Part shown: positions 2,130-63,244 of the stretch, piece after piece
How the letters are laid out: the number at the start of each line of letters is the position of its first letter
How positions within the stretch are numbered: the first letter of the stretch is position 1
Assembly: GCF_024199925.1 (NCBI RefSeq)
Contig: NZ_JANADR010000003.1
Span: forward strand, 150,101-214,100
Source of the DNA: Bradyrhizobium sp. CCGUVB1N3
GTDB taxonomy: Bacteria; Pseudomonadota; Alphaproteobacteria; Rhizobiales; Xanthobacteraceae
Direction of reading: 5' to 3'
Length of the DNA stretch: 64,000 bases
Position numbers and translations under genes: made by a program
Notes under the pieces: model-generated
Told to the model about the DNA's origin: nothing
Database searches by the model: none
The model's input: only the letters and a program-made list of their open reading frames with translations

Positions 2130-18743
<16,614 letters not shown>

Positions 18744-18745
18744 AA

Positions 18746-35799
<17,054 letters not shown>

Positions 35800-35803
<4 letters not shown>

Positions 35804-42693: not shown

Positions 42694-42833
42694 CCCCCCC
42701 GGACAGATAACAAGCTATTCGTGTGATTCTTGCGGGTAACCCGGCTCCGTTGAGCTATTTCAATATCACGCTGATTGCCCAGCGCGTAAGGTCCGGCGGA
42801 CGCGCAGGGGACATAAACAGGGGGTGGGAGACG

Positions 42834-44102
42834 GTGACGTATCGCTTTGTCCATGCTGCGGATATTCATCTTGATTCACCCCTGCGCTCGCTTGCGCTGC
42901 GCCATCCCGACCTGGCGGAGCTGATCGGCAACGCCACCCGGCGCGCCTTCGTCCAGGTGATCGACCTTTGCCTGGACGAGCAGGTCGACGCGCTCCTGAT
43001 CGCCGGAGATCTCTACGACGGCGATCAGACCTCGATGAAGACGGCGCGCTTCCTCGCCGAACAGCTCCGACGGCTCAGCCAAGCCGGCATTCGAGTCTTC
43101 ATCATCCGCGGCAACCACGACGCGCTGTCGAAAATCACCAAGGAATTGGTCCTGCCAGATTCCGTAAAGGTCTTCGGCGGGCGAGGGGAGGCAATCGATA
43201 TTGATCGCGCGCCGGGCCATGTTCCTGTTGTCGTCCACGGCCTGAGCTTCGCGCAACCGCACGCTCCGGAGAGCCTCCTCGGACGATTTCGTCCGGCGGT
43301 CGACGGTGCGGTCAATATCGGCCTCCTGCACACGAGCCTCGCAGGAGCTCCGGGACACGATCTCTACGCGCCGTGCAGCATTGCAGATCTCCAGGCGACC
43401 GGCTTTCACTATTGGGCCCTCGGTCATGTGCACAAACGCTCGGCTATAAAGGGCGGATGCGCGATCGTAATGCCCGGCATGCCGCAAGGCCGCGACATCA
43501 ATGAGGCCGGCCCGAAATCGGTGACGCTCGTGACCATCGCCAACGATCGCTCGATTCACGTCGAGGAACGGATCACCAGCGTGGCTCAGTTCGAGCGGAT
43601 TTCAGTCGACGTGAGCGGCCTGGAAGATTGGCGCGACCTCGTCGCGGCAGTGACCCGGGCACTTGAGAAGGAGCGCGACGCTCTCCGGTCCGAGCACCTG
43701 GTCGCCCGCGTGCGCATAACGGGTGCGACGCCGCTGGCATGGCGCATCCGGCGCGACGCGGACTTGCTGAAGACAGAGGCCGACGACAGGGGCTCCGTCA
43801 TAGGGGGATGCTGGATCGAGCAACTCGAAATCGCCTGCCGGCCGGCCGAGCAGCAGGACCAGACGTCGGGCGATCCGATCAGGGAGCTCCATCGCCTGAT
43901 CGAAGACGATGTCTTCGGATCGGAGGCGTTTCGAAGCGAACTGATGGGCGTGGCCGAGGAGATCAGGGCTCAGCTTCCGCAAGAGTGTCGTGACCTCTTC
44001 GGATCGGACGAAGCCTCTTTCAAGGAGGCGATCGCACGCCTGGCGCGCGAAGGCGCCGAGGGCGTCATGGCGCGTCTCGAGGCTGTCGGCGAGGAGACTT
44101 AA
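42834..44102 (+). CDS. YhaO-like metallophosphoesterase (SbcD/Mre11-type DNA nuclease)
   Basis: A 422-residue protein if read from GTG 42834, chosen because GGGAG lies just upstream and the protein then begins MTYRFVHAADIH, the usual family start. The longer frame from 42723 adds an unlike tail. Metal-site motifs are DIH (Asp10, His12), GDLYDG (58-63), GNHD (93-96) and GHVH. The C-terminal half is the usual capping/partner-binding region. Mre11/SbcD-type enzymes cut DNA ends together with an SMC-type ATPase, and that partner is encoded 3 nt downstream. The genomic setting (cut-off ATPase, AbiE-like pair) suggests a defence role rather than housekeeping repair (inference). Confidence 0.88.
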   Translation: MTYRFVHAADIHLDSPLRSLALRHPDLAELIGNATRRAFVQVIDLCLDEQVDALLIAGDLYDGDQTSMKTARFLAEQLRRLSQAGIRVFIIRGNHDALSKITKELVLPDSVKVFGGRGEAIDIDRAPGHVPVVVHGLSFAQPHAPESLLGRFRPAVDGAVNIGLLHTSLAGAPGHDLYAPCSIADLQATGFHYWALGHVHKRSAIKGGCAIVMPGMPQGRDINEAGPKSVTLVTIANDRSIHVEERITSVAQFERISVDVSGLEDWRDLVAAVTRALEKERDALRSEHLVARVRITGATPLAWRIRRDADLLKTEADDRGSVIGGCWIEQLEIACRPAEQQDQTSGDPIRELHRLIEDDVFGSEAFRSELMGVAEEIRAQLPQECRDLFGSDEASFKEAIARLAREGAEGVMARLEAVGEET

Positions 44103-44105
44103 GTC

Positions 44106-46811
44106 ATGCGCCTGCGTCGCCTCGACCTTACTCGATACGGCAAGTTCACCGACTGCAGCCTCGACTTCGGCGAGCGGCGCGAAGGAGAGCCGGATCTGCA
44201 CGTCATTTACGGGCCGAACGAAGCCGGCAAGTCGACCGCTTTCGCGGCCTTTCTCGATCTGCTGTTCGGGATCGGTTCGCAGAGCCCATTCGACTTCATC
44301 CATCCATACCCCACGATGCGGATCGGCGCGGCGTTGGACTTGGCTGGCGACACGCGGGAGTTCGCGCGGATCAAACGGCCGCAGAACAGTCTCCTCGACG
44401 GAGCCGATCGTGCGTTGCCCGAGGCCGCAATCCGGGCCGAGCTCGGCGGCATCGAGCGCGATGCGTACCGCACCATGTTCTCGCTCGATGATGAGACGCT
44501 CGAAAGAGGCGGCGAGAGCATTCTGGCGAGCAGGGGAGATCTCGGACAGTTGCTGTTTTCGGCAAGTGCGGGCCTCTCGCACCTCAGCGACAAGCTCGTC
44601 GGCCTCAAGGGGGAAGCGGACGGCTTCTACAAGTATCGCGCCCGCACGGGAGCACTCGCTGATCTGAAAGCGCGGCTGGCAGAACTCAAGGCTGAGCGCG
44701 AGCAATTCGACACTCTCGCCTCCGATCACGCCCGGCTCATCGACACGCGCGACCGGGCGTCCCTGCAATATGATGAGGCGGTCGAGGAACGCGGGCGTAT
44801 CCATCGACGCAGTGATGAGATCGAGCGCTACCTCGCGGCGTTGCCGCGTCTCTCCGCCTTGCGTGGCATCCGCGCGCGACTTGCGCCGCTGGCTGACGTG
44901 CCTGCGGACCCGCCGGCATGGGCAGGGGAACTGCCCCAGCTTCGAAAGCAAGAGATCGAGCTCGGAGTCAAAACCAAAGCGATCGCCGAGCAGATCGATC
45001 AGCTGGCGATCGAGCTCGCCGAGGTCGTTTTTGATGAGGCCGCGTTGCGCCTCGAGGAGCATGTAGAGCGACTGGCCGACTTGCGTGCCCGCCACGTGAC
45101 CGCCGACAAGGATATTCCCGAGCGGCGTTTGCAATTGCGTCAGCTCGACCTCGCGATGTCCGGGATCCTGCAGCGGATCGAGCGATCCGAAGAACCTGAT
45201 CCCAAACGCCTCGTGCTGCCAGCGGCGACCATCGGCCGCTTGCGCGATCTGATCGAATCCCGCTCGGGCATCGAGGGCGCGACGCGCAACGCCGCGCGAG
45301 AATTGGACGAGGCGCGGCAACGCCTCGACGAGGCGACGTCGAGACTGCCGGAGAGCGAAGCGGATCCTCACCTGCGTGCCGAACGGGATCGCGCTTTGGC
45401 TGAGCTGGCCGTCGTGGTCGAGGCGCTACGCTCCGCCGACCACCATGTTCGGCGCCGGCTTGCAGAGCGTGCCCGCGAGGCCGCGCTCGATCTGCTAACA
45501 GATCGACTTGCCGCTTTGGGACCATGGCATGGCACCGTCGATGAGCTTGTCGCCATGCAATGCCCCGGCGCCGAGGCCCTGCAGTATTGGAAGGCAGCGC
45601 GAGGCGAGGCGGAGGTTGCAGTACTGCGTCATCAGGGGGAGGTCGAACGGCTGACCACGCTGGTCCGGCACTGTGAAGCTGAAGAAACGAGCTTCGCTTC
45701 TACGACCGGCATCGTGTCCGACCACGAAGCTGCCGACATACGGGCGCGGCGTGAGCAAACTTGGGCGGCACATCGGCGCCTGCTGGACGTCGACTCTGCC
45801 GACGCCTTCGAGGCGGCGCTGCGTCAGGACGACATCATCAATGCGAGTCGGTTTTCACACATATCAGAGTTGGCGAAGCTGCATCAAAGCGGACAGGCGC
45901 TTGCCCTCGCACGAGCGGACCATGACCGCGCTCTCGAGCTCAGCGAGCGCGCCACCGCGGTCCAGGTCGCCTCTCTGGAGGAGGTGGCGCAAAAGATTTC
46001 CGATATCGCTCGCCGCGCCGATCTCGTCGAACAGGCAGGGCAGGCGGAGCAGGACATCGTCGAGGCATTGCGCGCGACGGATCTTCAGAGCGCGGAAGCC
46101 GCGCTCGATGCAGCAGACAGATCAGCTCTGGAAACCGAACTCGCCGAGTTGACGGCCCGCGCAGACGATCAGGACAAGCGGTGTCACGAGCTGTTCGCGG
46201 CGAAGTCGGCGGCCGAAGATCGCGTAGAGGCGATCGGCGGCGATGCGAGAGTCGCCATCATCGAGGAGCGTCGGCGGACGACGCTGCTTGAGATCGAGGA
46301 TCGCGCGATGCGCTATCTGCAGCTTAGAGCGGGCATCGCGGCCACCCAGCAGGCGCTCGCCACTTATCGCGAACGGCATCGTAGCTCCATGATGACGCGC
46401 GCGTCGGAGGCGTTCCGCACCATCAGCCGCGGCGCCTATACGGGGCTCGTCGCCCAGCCTGGCAGGGATGGCGATACATTGATCGCGGTCGCGGCCGAGG
46501 GAGGGTCAAAGGCCGCCGACAAACTCTCCAAGGGTACCCGCTTCCAGCTCTATCTTGCACTGCGCGTCGCGGGCTACCACGAGTTCGTGCGGGCTCGCAG
46601 CTCGGTCCCCTTCGTCGCGGACGACATCATGGAGACGTTTGATGATTTCCGCGCGGAGGAGGCGTTCCGGCTGTTCGCGGAGATGGCTCAGGTCGGGCAG
46701 GTGATCTATCTCACGCACCACCAGCATCTGTGCGAGATCGTCCAGCGTGTCTGTCCGGCAGCGCGCGTCCATCACCTCGATGAAGCGTCGTTGAAGCGCA
46801 AAGTGGCTTGA
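44106..46811 (+). CDS. YhaN-like SMC/Rad50-type AAA ATPase
   Basis: A 901-residue protein with a Walker A near the N-terminus (YGPNEAGKST, 36-44). A long charged, coiled-coil-rich middle follows (about 170-830, with several Leu/Glu/Arg-rich stretches). The C-terminus has an ABC-signature-like LSKGTRFQLYLALR and a Walker B VPFVADDIMETFDD followed by LTHHQHL. This is the SbcC/Rad50 layout. The N-terminal LFGIGSQSPFDFIHPY region is typical of the YhaN branch. It should form an ATP-driven complex with the nuclease encoded 3 nt upstream. Length is normal for YhaN-like proteins, shorter than SbcC. Confidence 0.88.
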   Translation: MRLRRLDLTRYGKFTDCSLDFGERREGEPDLHVIYGPNEAGKSTAFAAFLDLLFGIGSQSPFDFIHPYPTMRIGAALDLAGDTREFARIKRPQNSLLDGADRALPEAAIRAELGGIERDAYRTMFSLDDETLERGGESILASRGDLGQLLFSASAGLSHLSDKLVGLKGEADGFYKYRARTGALADLKARLAELKAEREQFDTLASDHARLIDTRDRASLQYDEAVEERGRIHRRSDEIERYLAALPRLSALRGIRARLAPLADVPADPPAWAGELPQLRKQEIELGVKTKAIAEQIDQLAIELAEVVFDEAALRLEEHVERLADLRARHVTADKDIPERRLQLRQLDLAMSGILQRIERSEEPDPKRLVLPAATIGRLRDLIESRSGIEGATRNAARELDEARQRLDEATSRLPESEADPHLRAERDRALAELAVVVEALRSADHHVRRRLAERAREAALDLLTDRLAALGPWHGTVDELVAMQCPGAEALQYWKAARGEAEVAVLRHQGEVERLTTLVRHCEAEETSFASTTGIVSDHEAADIRARREQTWAAHRRLLDVDSADAFEAALRQDDIINASRFSHISELAKLHQSGQALALARADHDRALELSERATAVQVASLEEVAQKISDIARRADLVEQAGQAEQDIVEALRATDLQSAEAALDAADRSALETELAELTARADDQDKRCHELFAAKSAAEDRVEAIGGDARVAIIEERRRTTLLEIEDRAMRYLQLRAGIAATQQALATYRERHRSSMMTRASEAFRTISRGAYTGLVAQPGRDGDTLIAVAAEGGSKAADKLSKGTRFQLYLALRVAGYHEFVRARSSVPFVADDIMETFDDFRAEEAFRLFAEMAQVGQVIYLTHHQHLCEIVQRVCPAARVHHLDEASLKRKVA

Positions 46812-51498: not shown

Positions 51499-52647
51499 AT
51501 GATGAAGCGCATTATCGTTTGCTGCGATGGTACCTGGAATGCGGACGACACCCAGACCGATGACACAAACGTCGCGCTTCTCGCGCGATCAATCCATGGC
51601 TCCCTGCAGACCGGTGGCACGCTGCAAATCGTCCTCTATTTGCGGGGCGTAGGAACGACAGGCCTAAAGCTCGAGAGCTGGATCGAAGGCGCCACCGGCA
51701 TCGGCGTCGATGACAATATCCGCTCCGCTTATCAATTCATCGCGCAGAACTATCTGCCCGGCGACGAGATCTATTTGTTCGGGTTCTCGCGCGGTGCGTT
51801 TACCGCCCGCAGTCTTGCGGGCCTAATCTCGGCTTGCGGTATTCTGTTTCGCCAGTCGTTGGGCGCCCTGCCTGATGCCTGGAAATACTACCGCAGCCCG
51901 AAACCTCACTCGCCCAAGGCCTTCGCCGATGCGTACAAGGTGAAGAGCCACCTGGAGCCTAGTATAGCCTTCCTCGGGGTCTGGGACACTGTGGGAAGCC
52001 TTGGCATACCGGGCAGCCTTCTGGCAGCCAGCAACAAGGAGAAGTTCGCGTTTCACGATACGACCCCGTCGCCGTTCGTGAAGCACGCCGTGCATGCTCT
52101 CGCCATTGATGAGCACCGGCACGACTTCACGCCCACGTTCTGGACTGGCGACGTGCCCGCAGGCGTGACGATCCAACAGGTCTGGTTTGCCGGTGCTCAC
52201 TCGGACGTCGGCGGCGGCTACAACACCCGAACCCTTGCCGACATCCCGCTGGTTTGGATGGTCAAGCAGGCCGAAGGGGTTGGCCTTGCCCTGGACTGGA
52301 CCTGCCTTCCCGATCCCACCATGCTCGACCCGACAGCGCCCTCACATGACTCCTCTTCGGGCCTATTCGCGCTGGACCGTTACCATCCGACCATCCGGGA
52401 CGTGGGAATGAAGAAGTGCATAGTGAAGCTCAACGAAAGCCTTTACTGCGCTCTCGATGAAAACGGTAAGCCGACCACCACGATCAATGAGGGCGTCCAC
52501 CGCAGTGTTCTGACGCGCTACTCGGGCTCTTCACAGATCTGTTCCGACGACGCCAAAGGCGTTTGTAGTCTGGGGCCGTATAAGCCGGAAAACTTGGCGC
52601 CCTTGTTCAACGGCGGCACATTCGCCGGTCTGCCTATTGTCGACTAA
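51499..52647 (+). CDS. DUF2235-family alpha/beta hydrolase (T6SS Tle1-like phospholipase fold)
   Basis: A 382-residue protein starting MMKRIIVCCDGTWN, the standard DUF2235 beginning. It has YLFGFSRGAFTAR (GxSxG-type nucleophile elbow, Ser97), GVWDTVGSLG, HALAIDEHRHDFTP and VWFAGAHSDVGGGY (the family's conserved His block). DUF2235 proteins include the Tle1 antibacterial phospholipases, but most are stand-alone enzymes of unknown substrate. No VgrG or immunity partner is next to it, so secretion by a type VI system is not supported here. Second ATG at 51502 is possible. A hairpin follows the stop. Confidence 0.88.
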   Translation: MMKRIIVCCDGTWNADDTQTDDTNVALLARSIHGSLQTGGTLQIVLYLRGVGTTGLKLESWIEGATGIGVDDNIRSAYQFIAQNYLPGDEIYLFGFSRGAFTARSLAGLISACGILFRQSLGALPDAWKYYRSPKPHSPKAFADAYKVKSHLEPSIAFLGVWDTVGSLGIPGSLLAASNKEKFAFHDTTPSPFVKHAVHALAIDEHRHDFTPTFWTGDVPAGVTIQQVWFAGAHSDVGGGYNTRTLADIPLVWMVKQAEGVGLALDWTCLPDPTMLDPTAPSHDSSSGLFALDRYHPTIRDVGMKKCIVKLNESLYCALDENGKPTTTINEGVHRSVLTRYSGSSQICSDDAKGVCSLGPYKPENLAPLFNGGTFAGLPIVD

Positions 52648-54157: not shown

Positions 54158-55333
54158 TCAATAGCGGGTACCGGGGATGTATTTTTCCAGGCGCGAGGGT
54201 GTCAGCTTGCCGTCGGGATGATAGCCGACGAGATCGATCTTACCGTCGAAATCAACGTCGTGAAAAGAGATGTCCCATTTCTGGTCGCGGTTGCGGTCCT
54301 CGACGGAGATATCGGTCTTGCCATCAAAGTTCGTGTCGAGATGCGCCGAGATGGGCTTGGTACGGTCGTCGGGCGTGACAAAGGAATAGTCCGGTTTGCC
54401 ATCGCAGTTCGTGTCGTACTGAACCAGTGTCGCGATCTCTTGCCGGTCCCTTCCCTCATAGAGCTTTACGGACTTGCAGGTCGCCGGCGGCTTGATCGGG
54501 ATCGGCTGCCCGGCTTTTGCGAGAAAGGCCTGCACGTCGGCAATCGAGATCGCGAAGTTGAGCGCCTCGCCTTTGGCTTTGAACGCATTACCGCCGATCA
54601 GCTTGCCGTCATCGGAGAGCAACGGCCCTCCTGAGTTTCCGGGGTTGATGGGCGTCTGGGTCTGGATCACGCTAGCTTTGTGGGATCCTTCTTCGTCCCG
54701 CCATTCATAATCCTTGCGGTATTGGCTGATGAAGCCCTTGGTGTAAGTCCAGGCTTCGCCGGTGGGATGCCCGATGGCGTGCACATCGGCGCCCACCTGA
54801 ATGTCGGACTCCGCCCCCAGCATGATGGGTTTAACATCGCGGGGTAAGGCTGCAACACGCAAGAGAGCCAGGTCGCGGCCAGGATCGATCTTGATCACGT
54901 CGGCGATCTCGATGTCGGCCTCGGACGGCTTGCTGCCTTCGGCCGGAGGCTTAAAGACGAGACCAACCTTTTGAAAGCCTTTCACGACGTGCCAGTTGGT
55001 CAGCACACTGTCGCCGCTCCCGATAAAGGAGCCTGAACCTATGCCGTCGTCGGTAGCGACAATGACGACGGACGGCGAGAGGGCGCGATAGATCTCGGAC
55101 TCATGGCGGCCGCGTCCGCTGTAAGGCGCGTCACCCAGCTTGGTCCCCGCATATTTGGTGACGGCCTTAGCCGAGAGGCCGCCCAGGTCGTAAAGTTCGG
55201 GGCTGTTCTCGACCGAGATCATGCTAGCGTTGTCGGGGGATGCAGGAAGAGCCATGCCAATCAGGCTCTCCTGCGCCATGGCAGGATCCGCGAGAACGAC
55301 GGCAATGACGGCTGACAACGCGGCGCGCTTCAT
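54158..55333 (-). CDS. Exported trypsin-like serine protease with C-terminal calcium-loop repeats
   Basis: 391 residues from MKRAALSAVIAVVLADPAMA, a clear signal peptide with an AMA cleavage site. This start was preferred to the upstream one at 55402, which precedes the signal. The catalytic triad fits an HtrA/S1-type fold: His115 (LTNWHVVKG), Asp154 (GRDLALL) and Ser234 (PGNSGGPLL). There is no PDZ domain. After ~300 the chain holds four short DxxxDGxxD-type loops (307, 333, 346, 359), as in EF-hand/dockerin-like or FG-GAP-like calcium sites. It probably acts in the periplasm or outside. It is divergent from the CHAT protease with only 22 bp between starts, which suggests joint action. Confidence 0.85.
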   Translation of the reverse strand: MKRAALSAVIAVVLADPAMAQESLIGMALPASPDNASMISVENSPELYDLGGLSAKAVTKYAGTKLGDAPYSGRGRHESEIYRALSPSVVIVATDDGIGSGSFIGSGDSVLTNWHVVKGFQKVGLVFKPPAEGSKPSEADIEIADVIKIDPGRDLALLRVAALPRDVKPIMLGAESDIQVGADVHAIGHPTGEAWTYTKGFISQYRKDYEWRDEEGSHKASVIQTQTPINPGNSGGPLLSDDGKLIGGNAFKAKGEALNFAISIADVQAFLAKAGQPIPIKPPATCKSVKLYEGRDRQEIATLVQYDTNCDGKPDYSFVTPDDRTKPISAHLDTNFDGKTDISVEDRNRDQKWDISFHDVDFDGKIDLVGYHPDGKLTPSRLEKYIPGTRY

Positions 55334-55355
55334 ACGAAAGGGCCCCCCTGCCCTG

Positions 55356-58300
55356 ATGTCGGTGCTGGCAGCGATGCTGCTCTGCACAATCCTCCAACTC
55401 ATTCCCGTCTCACGAGCATTTTCACAGCCCGCACCGGATTTGGAAAGCCGAAAACAGGCTGCCTACCAGAAATTTCATCAGGGTAAGGTGCGCGAGGCGG
55501 CGCGGGAGATTGCAGAGCTTGCCGAGCAGGAGACCGACAAGCGCGCGAAAGCCTATCTACTTCGCGATCTGACGGAGATCTGCTCGACAGCTTACGAACT
55601 CGGTTGCGCCCTAGAGTCCGAAGTCGCAGCGTATGAGATCGTCAAGGACGACAAGTCGCTCAATCCGCTCTTTTCAGATCTTTACGCCTATTTCGTGCGT
55701 GCGCAGGTTTGGGCCAACAATCCTGAAATCCTGAAAGGCATTTTCAAAGACAACAAAGTCGCGTTCAACCCGGCGGCGACACCCTACCCGGCAGCATCCG
55801 CCAATCTGGCCGCCGTCATTTATTTTCTCCGCGCGAACGATATGCGGCTTGTCGAAAAGGCCTACTCGAGCGCTGTCATCAGTCTTTTGTTGATCGATCC
55901 GAAGGACAAATACAGCATCTGCAAGATACTCGCCGAGTTGCTCGAATCTCTCGTCACGCAGCAGGACATTGCGAGCGCACAAACGCTTGCGCGTCTTATT
56001 GACCCCTACATGTCCGCCAACCTCAATCATGAAGGGCCGATCTTCGCCAACTACATGATAATCGTTACGAAGCTGTACGCTATGACTACGCGCTCGAAGC
56101 AGGTCGCGGGATTTCTCGAGGAAGGGATCCGGCTTAACGAGCGTCTCGATATTAATGAGAACGTGAAGCTGTACCGGACATCGACGAGCAACAGCCTGGC
56201 GTCCCTCTCGACCCTCTTCGAGGGTACGCCTGACGAGGCGGCGGCCATCCATGCGCGTCACCCTCTACAATCGCAGCGAGAGGCAATTCTTGCGCGCGGT
56301 CATTTTGATAACCTGCAGGAGTTTTACTTTGCGCTGTCGGACTTGCTGATCGACAGTTTCAAGGATCACGCGCGCATGCAGGTCTGGAAACCGCTCTTTG
56401 GTTCGCTCCCTGAAGCGTGGCAGCTAAAGGGGTTGATTGAAGAAGACATCGAATCTTATCGCCATTTTGCGCTTGGGCTCATTGCTGCAGAGAATTCGAA
56501 GGCCGAAGCAGCCGCTCTCGTGCAGACGGCGGCCCGGGAACGTATCGAGGTTTTCGAGACGTTTCTGAAGCAACGCTATGAAGGGTTTCAGCTTCCGACT
56601 CTCGTCGATCTGCTGATGATCGAGTCCGCCCTCACAACACTGGCCGAGTATCCACCGGCGGATGCGGCCGATCTTGCGCTGAAGGGCAGCGAGATGTTGG
56701 CACGCACGCTACGACATCAGACCAGCGACTTTGCCGTGCTGATCGGCGCGCAAAAGACTGAGCGGGCCCGCGCGGCGGTGCGTTCCTACTACCTTCTCCT
56801 TCAGCAAAAACGGCAATGGGAGTTCGATCAGATCAAGCTTCTCATGGCCGGCGGCAAGAAAGAGGCCGGGTATCTGATCACGACCTACGCACATCTGACA
56901 GAGACGGTCACGCAGCTTGGTGACGCAATCGCAAAGGGTGAGGACTACGCCAAAACAATCGGCTATCCACGTGTAGCGCAGATTCAGTCGGTCCTGCAGC
57001 CCAACGAGGTCTTCTTGACCTACTTTCTGACGCTCAAGGGCATGGGGCGGCTCTGCATCTCCGGATCGACCGTGGTCCATTCGGTATCGGATGTTGACCC
57101 GCAGCAAGCGCTCCGGGATGCCAAGCTCTTGCGTCTGGCGCTGACGCAGGAGCGCGCGGCCGACGAGGCGCTCGACAGCCAGTACCCGGTCGAGGCGGCC
57201 GTACGGCTGAAGGATCTCATGTTCAAGGGCCTTGAGGGCTGCATAAGGCCCGGCGCGTTGGTCAATGTCGCACCTCCTGATGAGCTCGCGGGCATTCCAT
57301 TTGCGGCGTTGCTGGAGGAAGCGCCTCCCCAGATGGGCGATGGCTATGATCTCGCGGCGGCGCGCTGGCTCGGCAAGACATACCGCTTCGCCACGACCAT
57401 TTCGGCGCGTCACTTCCTCGGTATGCGGGCGTCCGTCACCAATCAACACGCCCCGCTTCCCTATTTGGGGATTGGCAACCCCTCGCTCGCGAGCGTCGCC
57501 GCCCAGGCGAGCCTTACCCGCGGTGCCGCCACGAATAACTCCCTACGCGGCGCCCTGAGCGAACTTGGATCGCTGCCGGAGACAGAAGATGAGATCCTCA
57601 ATGTCGCGAAGCTGCTGAAGGCACGGAAAGAGGATGTTCTACTCGGTGCCGGTGCGTCCGAAGAAGATGTCCGCAGCAAGGATCTCGGCAAATACGACGT
57701 CATCCATTTTGCGACCCACGGATTGTTGCGCAATGATCTGCCGGGCCTGAACGAGCCATCCCTTGTTCTGACGCCGAATGACGTTTCTGACAGTTTCGAC
57801 GATGGTCTGCTGACGGCGTCCGAAATTACCCGGCTCCCGCTCGATGCGCGGCTGGTTGTGCTGTCGGCCTGCAATACAGCGCGCATCGATACCTCCGCCG
57901 CCAATCTCGGCATCACCGATCTTGCGGCAGCCTTCTCGGTGGCGGGTACGCCAACCTTGCTCGCCTCCCTCTGGACGGTTGAAACCAACGCGACCCATGA
58001 TCTGATGCTCGAATTCTTTCAGTCCTGGAATGCGCAGCAGCACAAGAGCGCGTCCTTTGCGCTTTTTGAGGGCATCGAGCACTATCTCGCCAAGGCCGAT
58101 AGAGCTCATCACCATCCTCGGTTCTGGGCGCCCTTCATCGTATTCGGCTATGGGGCAAGCCTGACCGAACAGGGTGATCCTCCCGCCGCGCTGACCTTCG
58201 ATTATACGCACTTAAATAGCGACGATGTCGGTGAGGTTTTCGATGCGAAGCCGCTTGCCGGTCGGCTGCTGCTCTCAGTCATGGGCGACTGGGACGGAAA

Positions 58301-59327
58301 GTCGATGGCAAGCGTCATCAGGGAGGCGGGACCGAAGTCGTCGTCGTCCTTTCCTACGTCCCATGAAATCGCCGCCGGCAACCTCCTTATCGATCAATCG
58401 CAGGTCTATGCCTTTGGCTACAAGACATCAGAACACCCTTACCCGATCGTCAGACGATTTACCCCGGATGGAGTGGAGGTCTGGAAGAAGGAATGGCCTG
58501 ATCTTGCGAATAATATGTCCTTCGGTTCAGTAACGTCCGGCAACCACATCGTGATGCTGTCGGGATCCAGCCTGTCGTCGACGGACGAGCGCATTGCGCA
58601 CATCGTCCGCTTCGATCGCGACGGCAACGAGATGGCGCGCAGGGACATCGAGGTTGGGCAGTCTGCGTTCATCATCGGCCGATGGGCGCTCTTGTCGAAG
58701 ATCGGTCCGGATCTCGCACTGATCATCAATTCACGACAGTTTGGCAATTTCGGCTCAAGCGAGGCTTTATTCGGTCTGCCGACATTGTGCCAAGGCCCGC
58801 AACAAGCAACAATCTATCGGCTGGATGCTGCAACCTTGGATGTGAAGAGCACATCCACACTTCCGGATTTTCAAGTCTTTGCCGCGGAGGCCGGCGAGAG
58901 CCAACTCAGGATCGCAGGTCAAGTGCACGGACCATGCGAGGAAGGCGGCAAAGGGCTTCTTCTCAGCGTGACCCCGGAACTGACATCGACGACGCTCTGG
59001 AAAGATGACGATGCATTCCCATCGAGTGTTCAGTCACTGGCAACATCCGGTGACCAAACCGTATTCACGGTCAAACGGCAACGGCCGATTGGCGTGCGAC
59101 GCCTCAATACGGCCGCGCCTGAGATCACAACCAAGCGATGGGGCGATGCCGGTGATGAATTGCTTGAATTCTCTGTTCTCAACCTTGGCACTGACGGGAG
59201 TGCCACCTCGCTCTTTAACTCTGCCTTCGGCCTAAGCGCTTTCGCTCAGGGTATTGTGCTCAACGCAGGCAAGCCCGTGATCTTTGGCAGTCTCGGCGGG
59301 CGGGCAGCGATTTCCGCAGTTCCTTAG
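55356..59327 (+). CDS. Exported CHAT-domain caspase-like cysteine protease
   Basis: 1,323 residues from ATG 55356 (MSVLAAMLLCTILQLIPVSR, a signal peptide ending near AFSQP; GAAAGGG lies upstream). The frame is open further upstream to 55221, but that part is antisense to the protease signal peptide. The N-terminal ~600 residues are helical and TPR-like (for example AYQKFHQGKVREAAREIAEL). The CHAT domain spans about 620-950 with the dyad His788 (VIHFATHG) and Cys839 (VVLSACNTA) and the usual GTPTLLASLW motif. The C-terminal ~350 residues look like a beta-propeller (repeated FDRDGNE-, LDAATL-like strands). CHAT proteases are separase/caspase relatives that cut partner proteins in bacterial conflict systems. 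An exported one is unusual. The partner may be the divergent trypsin-like protease (inference). Confidence 0.88.
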   Translation: MSVLAAMLLCTILQLIPVSRAFSQPAPDLESRKQAAYQKFHQGKVREAAREIAELAEQETDKRAKAYLLRDLTEICSTAYELGCALESEVAAYEIVKDDKSLNPLFSDLYAYFVRAQVWANNPEILKGIFKDNKVAFNPAATPYPAASANLAAVIYFLRANDMRLVEKAYSSAVISLLLIDPKDKYSICKILAELLESLVTQQDIASAQTLARLIDPYMSANLNHEGPIFANYMIIVTKLYAMTTRSKQVAGFLEEGIRLNERLDINENVKLYRTSTSNSLASLSTLFEGTPDEAAAIHARHPLQSQREAILARGHFDNLQEFYFALSDLLIDSFKDHARMQVWKPLFGSLPEAWQLKGLIEEDIESYRHFALGLIAAENSKAEAAALVQTAARERIEVFETFLKQRYEGFQLPTLVDLLMIESALTTLAEYPPADAADLALKGSEMLARTLRHQTSDFAVLIGAQKTERARAAVRSYYLLLQQKRQWEFDQIKLLMAGGKKEAGYLITTYAHLTETVTQLGDAIAKGEDYAKTIGYPRVAQIQSVLQPNEVFLTYFLTLKGMGRLCISGSTVVHSVSDVDPQQALRDAKLLRLALTQERAADEALDSQYPVEAAVRLKDLMFKGLEGCIRPGALVNVAPPDELAGIPFAALLEEAPPQMGDGYDLAAARWLGKTYRFATTISARHFLGMRASVTNQHAPLPYLGIGNPSLASVAAQASLTRGAATNNSLRGALSELGSLPETEDEILNVAKLLKARKEDVLLGAGASEEDVRSKDLGKYDVIHFATHGLLRNDLPGLNEPSLVLTPNDVSDSFDDGLLTASEITRLPLDARLVVLSACNTARIDTSAANLGITDLAAAFSVAGTPTLLASLWTVETNATHDLMLEFFQSWNAQQHKSASFALFEGIEHYLAKADRAHHHPRFWAPFIVFGYGASLTEQGDPPAALTFDYTHLNSDDVGEVFDAKPLAGRLLLSVMGDWDGKSMASVIREAGPKSSSSFPTSHEIAAGNLLIDQSQVYAFGYKTSEHPYPIVRRFTPDGVEVWKKEWPDLANNMSFGSVTSGNHIVMLSGSSLSSTDERIAHIVRFDRDGNEMARRDIEVGQSAFIIGRWALLSKIGPDLALIINSRQFGNFGSSEALFGLPTLCQGPQQATIYRLDAATLDVKSTSTLPDFQVFAAEAGESQLRIAGQVHGPCEEGGKGLLLSVTPELTSTTLWKDDDAFPSSVQSLATSGDQTVFTVKRQRPIGVRRLNTAAPEITTKRWGDAGDELLEFSVLNLGTDGSATSLFNSAFGLSAFAQGIVLNAGKPVIFGSLGGRAAISAVP

Positions 59328-59478: not shown

Positions 59479-60978
59479 TTATCTGCGAGTGATCCACTTG
59501 GTCGGCTTGAGGTGATCAACGGCAGCTCGCAAGGCCGTCCGTACGCGCTCACCAACGCTGCGCCGCGCCGTCGGCGGCTCGTCGATGCGCTCGACCGTCG
59601 CGTCTCTGCCTGGCGGCTTGGGACCGGTGACGTCGATCTTGGAGTGGTCGCCCTGCGCGATGAGGGTCGGGAACAGGCACTCTGGCTGGCAGGTACCCCA
59701 CTTCGGCGGCTCCATGTGCGCGCCGACGAAGTGGTAGAGTTGCTCGCCGGGATTGGCGCGTCCGAGAGGGGCAACGACCATCGCAAGCATCTGCAGCATT
59801 TGCTGGGCGGCACACGCCATCGAGAACGCAAACACGTTCTCGCTCACGCGCAACGGATGGTCCTTGGCCAGGTTCTGGATGTAAGTCGGATCGTCCAGGC
59901 GGCCCTCGCGTTCAAGCTGAACGAGGCCGGTGTCGTATTGGCCGATGCACTCCATACACCGGTGGTCGGCCGTGACGGTGTGCGCCCGCCAGTCGGCCGC
60001 CGTGAGCTCGTCTTTGCGGTTCTTCCGGACAGAGATTCCGCCGTCGATAACTGGGATCAAGTGCGCGTAGGCGATGAAGTTGAGGACGTGGCGCCCCCAG
60101 GGACGGTCGACGCACGAGAACAGCACGTCGCAATCGAGCGCGGCGCGGAATCCCTCCTCCTCGTAGACCGCGAAGGGCACGGGAATCGCCTCGAACCGGC
60201 GCGCGGTCGCGACCTCGCGCAGGCGATCACCCAGCGCGACGGCCTTGAGCTGGTGGATAATCCGCCGAGTCGCGTAGAGGAGGCGGTCGAGGTTTTTGCG
60301 CTCAATGCGGTCGTAGTCGATGACGATCACGTCCTCGCAGCCGGTGCGCGCCAAGCCTTCGGCAATGAAGCTGCCGACGCTACCAGCACCGATGACTCCG
60401 ACGCGCAGCCGAGCAAGGTGCTGTTGCGCCCGCTCGCCCCATGCCGAGACGGTCCGAATCTGCTCGCCGGTCGTGGCTGGTGGCGGCGCGAGCTTGTTCA
60501 TGTAGGTGACCTGAAGGCGGTCGCCGACCACGCGAACCGTAGCGCAATCGCGGCGGGCGTATCGACGGGGGCCGACACGCTCCCAGAACCTGGCACTCCA
60601 CGCGCCATCAGCGGCCACGGTCAAGCCGACGAATGACAAGCGTGTCGCGCCGTAGACAGCGGCCGCGTTGCCCTGCTCGGCGGCAATGTCGTCGGAACTC
60701 ATGTCTTGCCATTGCCGGCCGAGCGGATGGCTGTGGAGCAACGCAAGCCCGGCGCCGGCCTTCGCCGCCTCGGTCATTGCACGCTGCAAGTAAGTGGCGT
60801 GAAAGCTCACGTTGCCGTGGACGGTGCGGTCACCTTCGCGCGGCAGGATCAAGGTCTCGATCAACGCGGTCATGCGCGTGCAGCCCCGGCTCGGGCGCCA
60901 GAGCGCGAAGGTGAGGTCCTCCTGGCCGTCAGCGCGCAGGAGATGCCGACGCGCTGACTCGTGGACCGTTGTCGTCAT
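59479..60978 (-). CDS. E1-like ThiF enzyme fused to an N-terminal JAB isopeptidase
   Basis: 499 residues from MTTTVHESARRHLLR; the longer frame to 61101 overlaps the upstream gene. The N-terminal JAB/JAMM domain (~1-135) has HSHPLGRQWQDMSSDD (His82, His84, Asp96/97), the zinc site of deubiquitinases. The E1-like domain (~185-430) has GAGSVG (197-202) for ATP/NAD-fold binding, IDYDRIERKNLDR (the Asp/Arg motif of adenylating E1s) and a Cys pair CMEC (341, 344), candidate catalytic or zinc Cys. Such fusions are known from bacterial ubiquitin-like (multiubiquitin/DUF2604 and Bil-type) operons. They activate and also deconjugate the modifier. The ATG is 23 bp after the stop of the Ubl-E2 gene; one operon. 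Confidence 0.9.
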   Translation of the reverse strand: MTTTVHESARRHLLRADGQEDLTFALWRPSRGCTRMTALIETLILPREGDRTVHGNVSFHATYLQRAMTEAAKAGAGLALLHSHPLGRQWQDMSSDDIAAEQGNAAAVYGATRLSFVGLTVAADGAWSARFWERVGPRRYARRDCATVRVVGDRLQVTYMNKLAPPPATTGEQIRTVSAWGERAQQHLARLRVGVIGAGSVGSFIAEGLARTGCEDVIVIDYDRIERKNLDRLLYATRRIIHQLKAVALGDRLREVATARRFEAIPVPFAVYEEEGFRAALDCDVLFSCVDRPWGRHVLNFIAYAHLIPVIDGGISVRKNRKDELTAADWRAHTVTADHRCMECIGQYDTGLVQLEREGRLDDPTYIQNLAKDHPLRVSENVFAFSMACAAQQMLQMLAMVVAPLGRANPGEQLYHFVGAHMEPPKWGTCQPECLFPTLIAQGDHSKIDVTGPKPPGRDATVERIDEPPTARRSVGERVRTALRAAVDHLKPTKWITRR

Positions 60979-61001
60979 GGCGACGCTGTGCGTGGCCTGG
61001 C

Positions 61002-61853
61002 TCACTGCGTGTCCCACAGGCGCCAGATGTGACTCATGTAGACCGCGACGGTCTTCTTGGTCTTGGCCCAGTCCTTGAACGGCCGCGACCAGTACTCCCA
61101 CGCGCCGCCTGTGGCCTTGAACGGGACCGGGCTGTCGCTGATCGCGCCGGTCGGGTGCTGCTGCCCAGTCGGGTTCGGGTGGAAGCGGGGCGACACGTTC
61201 GGGCCGCCAGGAGGTGTCAGCGGGAAGTCGGCCGGGATGACGAGCCCGATGCGCACCTTAGTGCCGGCGTACTTGCCGGTCTCGATCCTGTAGTCGAAGG
61301 CCACATGGTCGGTCGTGCCCGCCACGACCGTCGGCGCGCAGCCGAGCTTGGTGAGCTCGGCGACGAACCGCTCGGTGCCGACCAGAGTGCGGCCGTCCGA
61401 GACCGGCGTCGGGCCGACGGTCACGATCTGGAACCGCTCGCAGTCGTGCAGCCTGATCGGTTCGTTGCCCTTGCCCTCGAAGCTGACCGACTTGTTACCG
61501 ACGATCTCGACCAGGTAGCTGTCGGCCGGGTCGCGACCGCCGAACTCCTTGATGATCTCGTTCGGCGTCCATTCGACCCGCTTGGTGCTGAACTCCTCAC
61601 CGTCCACCTCGAAGTGGATAACGTGGTCGTGGCGCGTCCTCTCGAGATCGGTCTCGGCCTCCTCGAGCTTGTGGGTCGCCTCCTCTAAGTCAGCGAGGCC
61701 GTGTTTGACCTCTTGCTCGGACTCGGTGACCTTCTCCTTGGCAGCCTTGACGGCCGCCAAAGCGGCCTGCTCGGCGTCGTCGCCACAGCCCTCGCGGCCG
61801 TGGCCCGGCAGATCGGGCGGAGAGGTATCCTGTGATTCTGGAGGGGTATTCAT
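61002..61853 (-). CDS. Ubiquitin-like protein fused to an E2-like domain, with N-terminal coiled coil
   Basis: 283 residues from MNTPPESQDT; upstream codons to 62321 are antisense to the XRE gene. Residues ~28-75 form a heptad coiled coil (KVTESEQEVKHGLADLEEAT). Residues ~77-150 fit the multiubiquitin (DUF2604-like) beta-grasp fold (VIHFEVDGEEFSTKRVEWTP ... DCERFQIVTVGPTPVSDG). Residues ~160-283 fit a prokaryotic E2-like fold (FDYRIETGKYAGTKVRIGLV, IPADFPLTPPGGPNVSPRFH, ending YMSHIWRLWD). The only cysteines are 23, 138 and 172, none where an E2 active-site Cys is expected, so the E2 part may be non-catalytic or work otherwise. First gene of the operon with the E1-JAB fusion. Confidence 0.82.
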   Translation of the reverse strand: MNTPPESQDTSPPDLPGHGREGCGDDAEQAALAAVKAAKEKVTESEQEVKHGLADLEEATHKLEEAETDLERTRHDHVIHFEVDGEEFSTKRVEWTPNEIIKEFGGRDPADSYLVEIVGNKSVSFEGKGNEPIRLHDCERFQIVTVGPTPVSDGRTLVGTERFVAELTKLGCAPTVVAGTTDHVAFDYRIETGKYAGTKVRIGLVIPADFPLTPPGGPNVSPRFHPNPTGQQHPTGAISDSPVPFKATGGAWEYWSRPFKDWAKTKKTVAVYMSHIWRLWDTQ

Positions 61854-61913
61854 GGTTGTTTCTTTCGTAGTTTCAGATTGATAGGTCGTCCGGCTAGGAA
61901 GACCCTGTCCGTA

Positions 61914-61942
61914 TAGATATATCGAACGTTGCCGTTTGTCAA
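61914..61942 (-). promoter_or_regulatory. Sigma70-type promoter of the ubiquitin-like operon
   Basis: On the minus strand TTGACA (61942-61937), 17-bp spacer, TATCTA (61919-61914), about 60 bp before the Ubl-E2 start. It lies in the 174-bp region shared with the divergent XRE gene, a natural place for repression by that regulator. No clear inverted repeat was found. Confidence 0.55.
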
Positions 61943-62027
61943 TCGACGTGGTACGACTGCGTTCGCCATTGAAAACGCGCCGCCGCGCGGTCGTGAGCAA
62001 ATCCCGATTCAATAGAAAGTCTAACGA

Positions 62028-62348
62028 ATGAGCTTGGGCGCACGCCTCAAGGAGCTGCGAGTCCAGCGGAACCAGTCGCTGCAGGATGTCGCCGACGCCG
62101 TTGGAGCGTCGAAGGCGCACATCTGGGAAATCGAGCGCGGTGGGAGCAAGAACCCGACGATGGACCTTCTCACCAAGTTGGCATCGCACCTCGGCGTCTC
62201 GGTTGCCTATCTCGTCGGCGAGCAAGCAAACCAGAAGGACGCCGAGGCTGTGGCCATGTTCCACAAATTCAGGAGTCTGGACGACAGCGACCGCGAGGCC
62301 ATCAACCGGCTCATGGAGCATTTGAAGAAGAAGGAAGGCGGTGGCTGA
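62028..62348 (+). CDS. XRE-family (Cro/CI-type) transcriptional regulator
   Basis: 106 residues: LGARLKELRVQRNQSLQDVA and GASKAHIWEIERGGSKNPTM give the five-helix HTH_3 fold (about 4-62), followed by a short helical tail. Members bind short palindromes as dimers. It is divergent from the ubiquitin-like operon and overlaps the next gene by one base (TGATG), forming a regulator/metallopeptidase pair. In such pairs the ImmA/IrrE peptidase cleaves or inactivates the XRE repressor in response to a signal. Confidence 0.92.
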   Translation: MSLGARLKELRVQRNQSLQDVADAVGASKAHIWEIERGGSKNPTMDLLTKLASHLGVSVAYLVGEQANQKDAEAVAMFHKFRSLDDSDREAINRLMEHLKKKEGGG

Positions 62349-63244
62349 TGCCCATCTCGCGAATGGACATTGACGGAAGGGGGTCGGGCTCGCCGATGGG
62401 TATCGTGGGGTTGATCTTAAAGCATGAGCCCGACATGCGCCCGCCGATCCCGATTGAACGATTGTGCGCGCAACTCGACATCGTGGCGATCGAGGAGCAC
62501 GACAGCGACAACTTTGAGGGCGTCCTCGTCACCGATGTCAACAAGCACTCAGGCTCAATTGGTCATAAGCGCGGACGTCCGCGTCAGCGAAGCCGGTTCA
62601 CGATTGCACATGAGCTCGGGCACTTCTTAATAGCGACGCACAAGCCGCTGTCGCCCGACGGTTTCCGGTGCACGCGCGCCGACATGTACATACGCGACGC
62701 CGCCGAGGCGGACCGGCGCGGACGCATGGAGGTCGAGGCGAACCAGTTCGCGTCCCTCATGCTGATGCCGCCCCCCTTCCTCCGCCAGGCGTTCAAGACC
62801 CAGGGCGAGCCAAACCTCCGGCACGTTCCGGCAATGGCGGTCGATTTCGACGTGAGCAAGGAGGCGATGGCCCGCGCCTATGCCGAGAACCATCCTGAGC
62901 CGCTCGCCATCGTGATCACTCAAAATGGACGCATCCTGCGCTCATATCGGAATCGCATCCGGTTTCCGTTTATCCAGCCGCGTAGTGGCGATGCGGTCCC
63001 GCGAGGATCACTATTCCATCGCGGCAACCATCAGCGCGGTGCGGCTTCGGCCACTGAGGAGTGCGTGCCCGACCTGTGGATCGAGGTCAAACGCGGGGAG
63101 CGGGCGCCGACAGTGTACGAGCAGGTCCTTCTCCAACAGGAGGGGTTCGCGATGATCATGCTTCATCTTGAACAGGCCGAAGAAGGGGACGAGGAAGAGG
63201 AGCGCGATCTAGAACGCAGTTGGCAACCGAGATTTCGCCGCTAG
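62348..63244 (+). CDS. ImmA/IrrE-family zinc metallopeptidase
   Basis: 298 residues with SRFTIAHELGHFLIAT (HExxH zinc site at about 95-99) and EVEANQFASLMLMPPPFLRQ, where the Glu is the third metal ligand and the MLMP stretch is typical. Family members (ImmA of ICEBs1, IrrE/PprI of Deinococcus) cleave XRE-type repressors. The C-terminal third (after ~190) is an extension ending in an acidic tail (EEGDEEEERD). Its gene overlaps the XRE gene by one base. It probably controls the divergent ubiquitin-like operon (inference). Confidence 0.9.
   Translation: MPISRMDIDGRGSGSPMGIVGLILKHEPDMRPPIPIERLCAQLDIVAIEEHDSDNFEGVLVTDVNKHSGSIGHKRGRPRQRSRFTIAHELGHFLIATHKPLSPDGFRCTRADMYIRDAAEADRRGRMEVEANQFASLMLMPPPFLRQAFKTQGEPNLRHVPAMAVDFDVSKEAMARAYAENHPEPLAIVITQNGRILRSYRNRIRFPFIQPRSGDAVPRGSLFHRGNHQRGAASATEECVPDLWIEVKRGERAPTVYEQVLLQQEGFAMIMLHLEQAEEGDEEEERDLERSWQPRFRR

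Follow-up and report, generated by a model that had tools for sequence, protein, structure and literature searches.

A Bub-type operon of a diverged branch beside a divergent CapH/CapP-like gene pair in Bradyrhizobium sp. CCGUVB1N3

Genes of the locus and their relation to known systems

We analysed a stretch of 64,000 nucleotides ("the window") from Bradyrhizobium sp. CCGUVB1N3, in which an earlier note, made from the letters alone, had recognised a compact ubiquitin-like (Ubl) conjugation locus at 59479..63244. The contig is most likely a plasmid, because it carries RepB and RepC genes. The two adjacent minus-strand fusion genes of the note, one joining a Ubl to an E2 (Ubl-E2), the other a JAB peptidase to an E1 (JAB-E1), were confirmed by open reading frames (ORFs), a Pfam ThiF match, JAMM residues and AlphaFold2 models. 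The interval thus holds both genes, but it is more than a two-fusion locus: it also contains divergent helix-turn-helix (HTH) and M78 peptidase genes that the note left unnamed.

61002..61853, minus strand: fusion gene for Ubl-E2 of the BubA-BubB type, 283 aa, starting at ATG (ORF calling, homologs, fold)
59479..61005, minus strand: fusion gene for JAB-E1 of the BubCD type, with 508 aa if read from GTG and 499 aa if read from the ATG (60978)
61002..61005, minus strand: GTGA overlap of the Ubl-E2 stop and the probable JAB-E1 start (same overlap type in 9/9 loci)
61854..62027, no strand: intergenic region shared by Ubl-E2 and CapH, expected operator/promoter (divergent gene starts)
62028..62348, plus strand: CapH-like HTH repressor (PADLOC capH, 1.3e-26)
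62348..63244, plus strand: CapP-like M78 metallopeptidase with HELGH active-site motif (PADLOC capP, 2.4e-52; PF06114, 5e-14; HExxH)

The 23 bp that the note had placed between the fusion genes run to an internal ATG. Comparison of gene starts makes it more likely that JAB-E1 begins at the GTG overlapping the Ubl-E2 stop: a 4-nt ATGA or GTGA overlap was found at this boundary in 9/9 loci examined (the window and 8 others), and after each of them JAB-E1 starts with similar sequence and reaches A-M at residues 9-10. Residue numbers of JAB-E1 follow the 499-aa form. The survey proposed in the note found the adjacency of the two genes again in 8 further loci; in one of these, L003, the Ubl-E2 frame is interrupted by a stop at the Ubl/E2 junction, whereas the other adjacent loci are intact. 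A scan of the Ubl-E2/CapH intergenic region detected no consensus promoter, and one weak 13-nt inverted repeat (77%) lies there.

The proteins were divided as follows.

60499..60978, minus strand: JAB/JAMM peptidase domain, residues 1-160 (E20, H82, H84, S94, D97; conservation, model match to BubCD from residue 1)
59629..60486, minus strand: E1 adenylation domain, residues 165-450 (G197xG199xxG202, R232, K245, D291; PF00899, conservation)
59881..59883, minus strand: codon of Tyr366, which is invariant and corresponds to Y370 of Citrobacter BubCD (structure and sequence alignments)
61629..61781, minus strand: N-terminal coiled-coil helix, residues 25-75 (AlphaFold2 model; variable module among homologs)
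61398..61628, minus strand: ubiquitin-like beta-grasp domain, residues 76-152
61395..61415, minus strand: junction G147-P-T-P-V-S152|D153, where the mature Ubl is predicted to end and JAB to cut (conservation, model, split relatives)
61005..61397, minus strand: E2-like domain, residues 153-283, in which no cysteine is conserved

JAB-E1 has at least 3854 homologs among 8000 scored candidates, and its E1 part matches ThiF (PF00899) strongly (E 4.7e-28). In an alignment of 31 relatives, the JAMM residues E20, H82 and H84 were present in 31/31 rows and S94 and D97 in 30/31, and the ATP-site residues G197, G202, N229, R232, K245 and D291 in 31/31 (G199 in 30/31). The AlphaFold2 model reached a mean predicted local distance difference test (pLDDT) score of 84.7 and a predicted template modelling (pTM) score of 0.86.

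For Ubl-E2 the profile checks suggested in the note gave less: UQ_con (0.076) and, with the C-terminal part alone, Prok-E2_E (0.046) were weak, and Multi_ubiq (PF14452) did not match at E up to 1. Nonetheless, at the same limit 8/26 homologs matched Multi_ubiq and 19/26 Prok-E2_E, although the window protein itself lacks the former match. The note was right about kinship to multiubiquitin operons. PDB sequence searches with the Ubl-E2 profile or an actinobacterial Ubl returned nothing convincing. The AlphaFold2 model (73-row alignment, mean pLDDT 87.8; pTM 0.55, at which the placing of domains is unsure) contained a helix at 25-75 and both folds for which the note had wanted models checked, namely a beta-grasp (79-145) followed by an E2-like fold (159-283). 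The E2 of the note thus stands as a fold, but no conserved cysteine, a point absent from the note, goes with it: no column held more than 5 Cys among the 73 rows, and position 239, which the motif, judged by eye, places opposite the E2 cysteine, is H in 48, S in 9, Q in 6, L in 3 and others in the rest. The helix before the Ubl, which had been called an oddity, is on sequence comparison one among several N-terminal modules; a crude composition rule, applied to the 80 homologs with recognisable junction (81 were found, the window's own counted), gave 34 coil-like, 20 short, 12 mid, 7 other and 7 long. Diverse N-terminal domains are reported for bacterial Ubls.

These features place the locus with Bub, or operon type 6e. 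It has a JAB on the E1 N-terminus (BubCD homolog), a Cys-less E2-like domain (BubB homolog), a BubA-homologous beta-grasp Ubl and an invariant E1 Tyr. Against the PDB, JAB-E1 matched BubCD at 1.4e-24 and Cap2 at 2.1e-6; its identity to the JAB-E1 of Citrobacter BubA/BubB/BubCD (PDB 9ea4, 9ea5, 9ea8, 9eae, 9eav) is ~22%. No other solved system that was found comes as close as Bub; Bil was set against the locus by its gene set and type of E2. Bil comprises Ubl, E1, E2 and JAB in separate genes (BilABCD) and has a cysteine E2, whereas the window has two fusions and no conserved E2 cysteine. Membership in Bil or in a type II cyclic oligonucleotide-based antiphage signalling system (CBASS) is highly improbable. 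It would account for the presence of JAB, E1, E2 and Ubl parts, for the match of PADLOC E1-E2 models to the window E1 (2.4e-15) and for the CapHP name, which originates with CBASS. However, type II CBASS has a CD-NTase as substrate, cysteine thioesters and an E1 fused with E2, as in Cap2; here the E1 carries a JAB and not an E2, no CD-NTase was found among 19 window proteins scanned with Pfam, and the BubCD match outranks that of Cap2. Domain order and fold disfavour both systems. Cap2/Cap3 does share with the Bub relatives a JAB protease and, in the part of PMC10097602 on the substrate, a Gly/Ala tail, as in split relatives of our locus.

The passages on operon type 6e in Iyer et al. (2006, PMC1779556) describe a JAB mostly fused to the E1 N-terminus and 1-3 Ubls, possibly fused to a Cys-less RWD-like E2; the window agrees in both fusions. 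They also list, without making it universal, a Zn-finger gene (sll6052 of Synechocystis, which we take to be the DUF6527 gene of locus L041). This Bub accessory gene is absent from the window locus, which in turn has a repressor-protease pair that those passages do not mention. The note's statement that relatives usually use separate genes is not supported: besides the type 6e fusions in these passages (PMC1779556), the solved Citrobacter BubCD is a JAB-E1 fusion, and Ubl and E2 are fused in 14/31 loci. The note's reason for interest is therefore largely known already; we dropped the double fusion as a novelty, as it was described in 2006 and recurs on the JAB-E1 tree. What this analysis adds are the modifier tail, the missing DUF6527 gene, an E1 Tyr that never varies and a repressor-protease pair that is often found next to the operon. 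We read the locus as a Bub ("6e") operon of a diverged branch on a probable plasmid, controlled by a divergent CapH/CapP switch and working as proposed below, and give this reading as a whole a probability of about 70%.

Modifier tail, predicted cleavage and proposed cysteine-free transfer

In the group of the window, V151 was found in 73/73 rows and S152 in 72/73; the next residue is D in 69 rows, E in 3 and N in 1. In a structure comparison with the solved BubA piece, the alignment stops at BubA residue 229, which lies opposite Ubl-E2 residue 152. Nine standalone Ubls that we retrieved end at the same point as the fusion junction, 8 in V-A and 1 in F-A. A search with an actinobacterial Ubl, which admits short proteins only, so that fusions could not appear, gave 231 proteins, and the best 120 of the 231 end in V-A (108), V-G (11) or F-A (1). 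In addition, P0081 ends GPTPLS, and L003 has a TAG directly after GPTPVS (a metagenome contig, error possible). The archaeal L045, a member of the window's branch, does not display that branch's tail. One point weighs against a released Ser tail, by analogy: in the part of PMC10097602 on cGAS of CBASS, the end is Gly or Ala, and a Ser mutant failed. The Gly/Ala end of cGAS has its counterpart in the Gly/Ala interchange of split Bub relatives.

Alternatively, the Ubl might never be released, Ubl-E2 serving as one polypeptide (scaffold or filament) and JAB acting elsewhere. In the nearest group 8/9 loci keep the fusion intact, 72/72 non-gap rows have Gln as the last E2 residue, and PDB titles indicate that multi-Ubl proteins can form filaments. 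Yet split relatives terminate exactly at the junction, residues 150-153 are, with 17-23, one of two Ubl-E2 stretches with pLDDT <50, and the Gln codon also lends a base to the ATGA overlap. Moreover, when 31 loci were labelled by reading them as fused (14) or split (17, including L028, which has no annotated E2 gene), the label changed 7 times on the JAB-E1 tree, with at least 5 changes forced by supported branches (shuffled mean 10.4), which is what separately functioning parts would lead one to expect. We consider an unreleased Ubl unlikely. The same Gln had been a candidate for a second E1 substrate, which we rejected, given the codon overlap and its absence from split actinobacterial E2s.

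Bub is reported to act via oxyesters. Tyr366 of JAB-E1 was found in 31/31 rows and in 40/40 of a close set. The PDB complex 9eav is titled BubCD(D104A/Y370F)-BubB-BubA(155-229); its changed Tyr sits in a 'GYI' motif and aligns, via L033, with Tyr366. This suggests that Tyr366 could be the nucleophile, and the invariant Tyr may be a family-defining trait of Bub. Ser256 of the WSR motif (72/72 non-gap rows; split relatives, judged by eye, have WSR, HSR or WSH) is a candidate E2 nucleophile.

A different product would arise if the E1, like MoeB or MccB, adenylated only, yielding a thiocarboxylate or modified Ubl and no protein conjugate. MccB and MoeB are among the fold neighbours of the JAB-E1 model, no conserved cysteine occupies what we take to be the site of the catalytic one in ThiF, and C341 (30/31 rows), C344 (29/31), C430 and C434 look like zinc ligands. 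But the loci examined retain both the E2-like partner and the JAB fusion, and inspection by eye of the annotated neighbours viewed showed no rhodanese or other sulfur-related gene. This makes adenylation alone a quite improbable function.

Two branches, their control genes and a proposed mechanism

A JAB-E1 relative at 1e-40 occurs in 6/265 genomes of the genus, and the Ubl-E2 search detected 3 among 100 relatives, one marginal at 9.9e-4. The Ubl-E2 profile found 3/385 in a class sample and JAB-E1 2/398 in a phylum sample (own genome counted throughout). No relative was confirmed on viral contigs, and a plasmid search with Ubl-E2 gave no match. Judged by these searches, the distribution of the Bub locus is sporadic.

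With midpoint rooting, the tree of the 31 JAB-E1 sequences separates 12 rows from the 19 of the window's branch (support 100/100); L045, L033 and L023 are on long branches, and the program warns that L033 and L045 may be joined wrongly. In the 12-row branch the Ubl tail is T-T-E-G, in contrast to V-S in the window. It is the exact end of standalone Ubls in L038, L041 and L042, is followed by 2-8 further residues in L034, L036 and L037, lies at the junction of fusions in L035, L039, L040, L043 and L044, and is missing from L033. DUF6527 was detected in 12/12 loci of this branch, from 11 of which its model was built, versus 0/19 of the window's branch, window included (with short contigs of 5.9 kb for L023 and 9.6 kb for L003). 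The window further differs from Bub in its single Ubl behind a coiled coil. All this suggests a Bub family with at least two branches, distinguished by their modifier tails, accessory genes and control proteins. The window's tail and accessory genes set it apart in a branch that has been little described, and our literature search turned up no title on it. As a separate observation, genes for a nucleotidyltransferase and a SAVED-domain protein lie close behind the Bub operon of L042, on a Nostoc plasmid, and make up a CBASS-like neighbour.

An M78-type peptidase gene lies within ~1.5 kb of the Ubl gene in 26/31 loci (window group 9/9, actinobacterial 7/8, other branch 10/12), and HExxH is present in 26/26. 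Besides the window's, ten of these neighbours passed the M78 cut-off in Pfam or genome searches, L030's fell below it, and the remainder rest on ImmA/IrrE annotation. None was seen in L023 (5.9-kb contig), L032, L034, L044 (3.1 kb upstream viewed) and L045. In 8 genomes, six of them from one genus and hence not independent, 22 M78 genes were counted in ~54 Mb, and 8/8 had one within ~1 kb of the Ubl-E2 gene. The window pair resembles CapH/CapP in its HTH and M78 genes divergent from the operon and in its strong PADLOC matches; other loci of its branch differ in having other HTH-M78 subfamilies, some co-directional or fused. The passages on Bub in PMC13373217 place CapW or CapHP next to 219/544 Bub operons, have single-stranded DNA activate CapP, which then cleaves CapH, and state that Bub protection against phage has not been shown so far. 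By analogy, the neighbouring pair probably switches the operon on under DNA damage.

We propose the following order of events. CapH would repress the operon until DNA damage, through single-stranded DNA, activates CapP and CapH is cleaved, as in characterised CapHP. JAB would then cut the Ubl-E2 precursor between S152 and D153, freeing a Ubl ending ...GPTPVS and its E2-like partner. The E1, whose site residues are conserved, would adenylate the Ubl carboxyl end, and the Ubl would be passed on without cysteine, most likely as an ester on Tyr366. The Cys-less E2-like domain could position it for transfer to a target, from which JAB might later remove it; phage defence or a DNA-damage response are candidate ends. 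Tentatively, and with somewhat less than even odds, we extend this to a wholly cysteine-free conjugation branch that combines a JAB-freed Ubl with Ser, Ala or Gly tail, a Tyr ester, no zinc-finger helper and damage-switched protease control. Cysteine-independent Ubl conjugation thereby becomes testable at the S152|D153 cut, the Tyr366 ester and CapHP induction, and the repressor-protease neighbour at 26/31 loci links poorly understood Bub operons to DNA-damage control.

Two further observations concern the regulator position. In Rhodococcus L029, L030 and L031 a RelE/ParE-family toxin and a HigA-family antitoxin are annotated there, the antitoxin being an HTH-M78 fusion in L029, under the M78 cut-off in L030 and known from annotation in L031. 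L018 carries a second HTH and M78-like pair (3430-4822) ~4 kb past its JAB-E1 gene.

Other genes of the window and of related loci

Similar proteins of 128-129 aa without Pfam match are encoded right downstream of JAB-E1 in two Bradyrhizobium-group loci (L017:10102-10491, L002:12308-12694); no counterpart was seen by eye beside the window locus. At 54158-59327 of the window, a gene for a CHAT-domain protein (PF12770, 2.8e-45; apparent signal peptide by eye) and one for a trypsin-like protease (PF13365, 5.4e-27) are arranged head to head. A protein with a Tle1-like phospholipase domain of the type VI secretion system (PF09994, 6.8e-84) is encoded at 51499-52647, and lookalike ORFs were noticed by eye near the Bub loci of L002 and L020. 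At 42723-46811 a metallophosphoesterase gene is followed by one for an AAA_27 ATPase, a pair resembling the DNA-repair type. A short protein at 1395-1964 matches the YopJ acetyltransferase family at its start only (positions 2-78 of 263). Two adjacent giant ORFs, 2130-18743 (5537 aa) and 18746-35803 (5685 aa), probably encode long tandem-repeat proteins, because their antisense ORF patterns recur.

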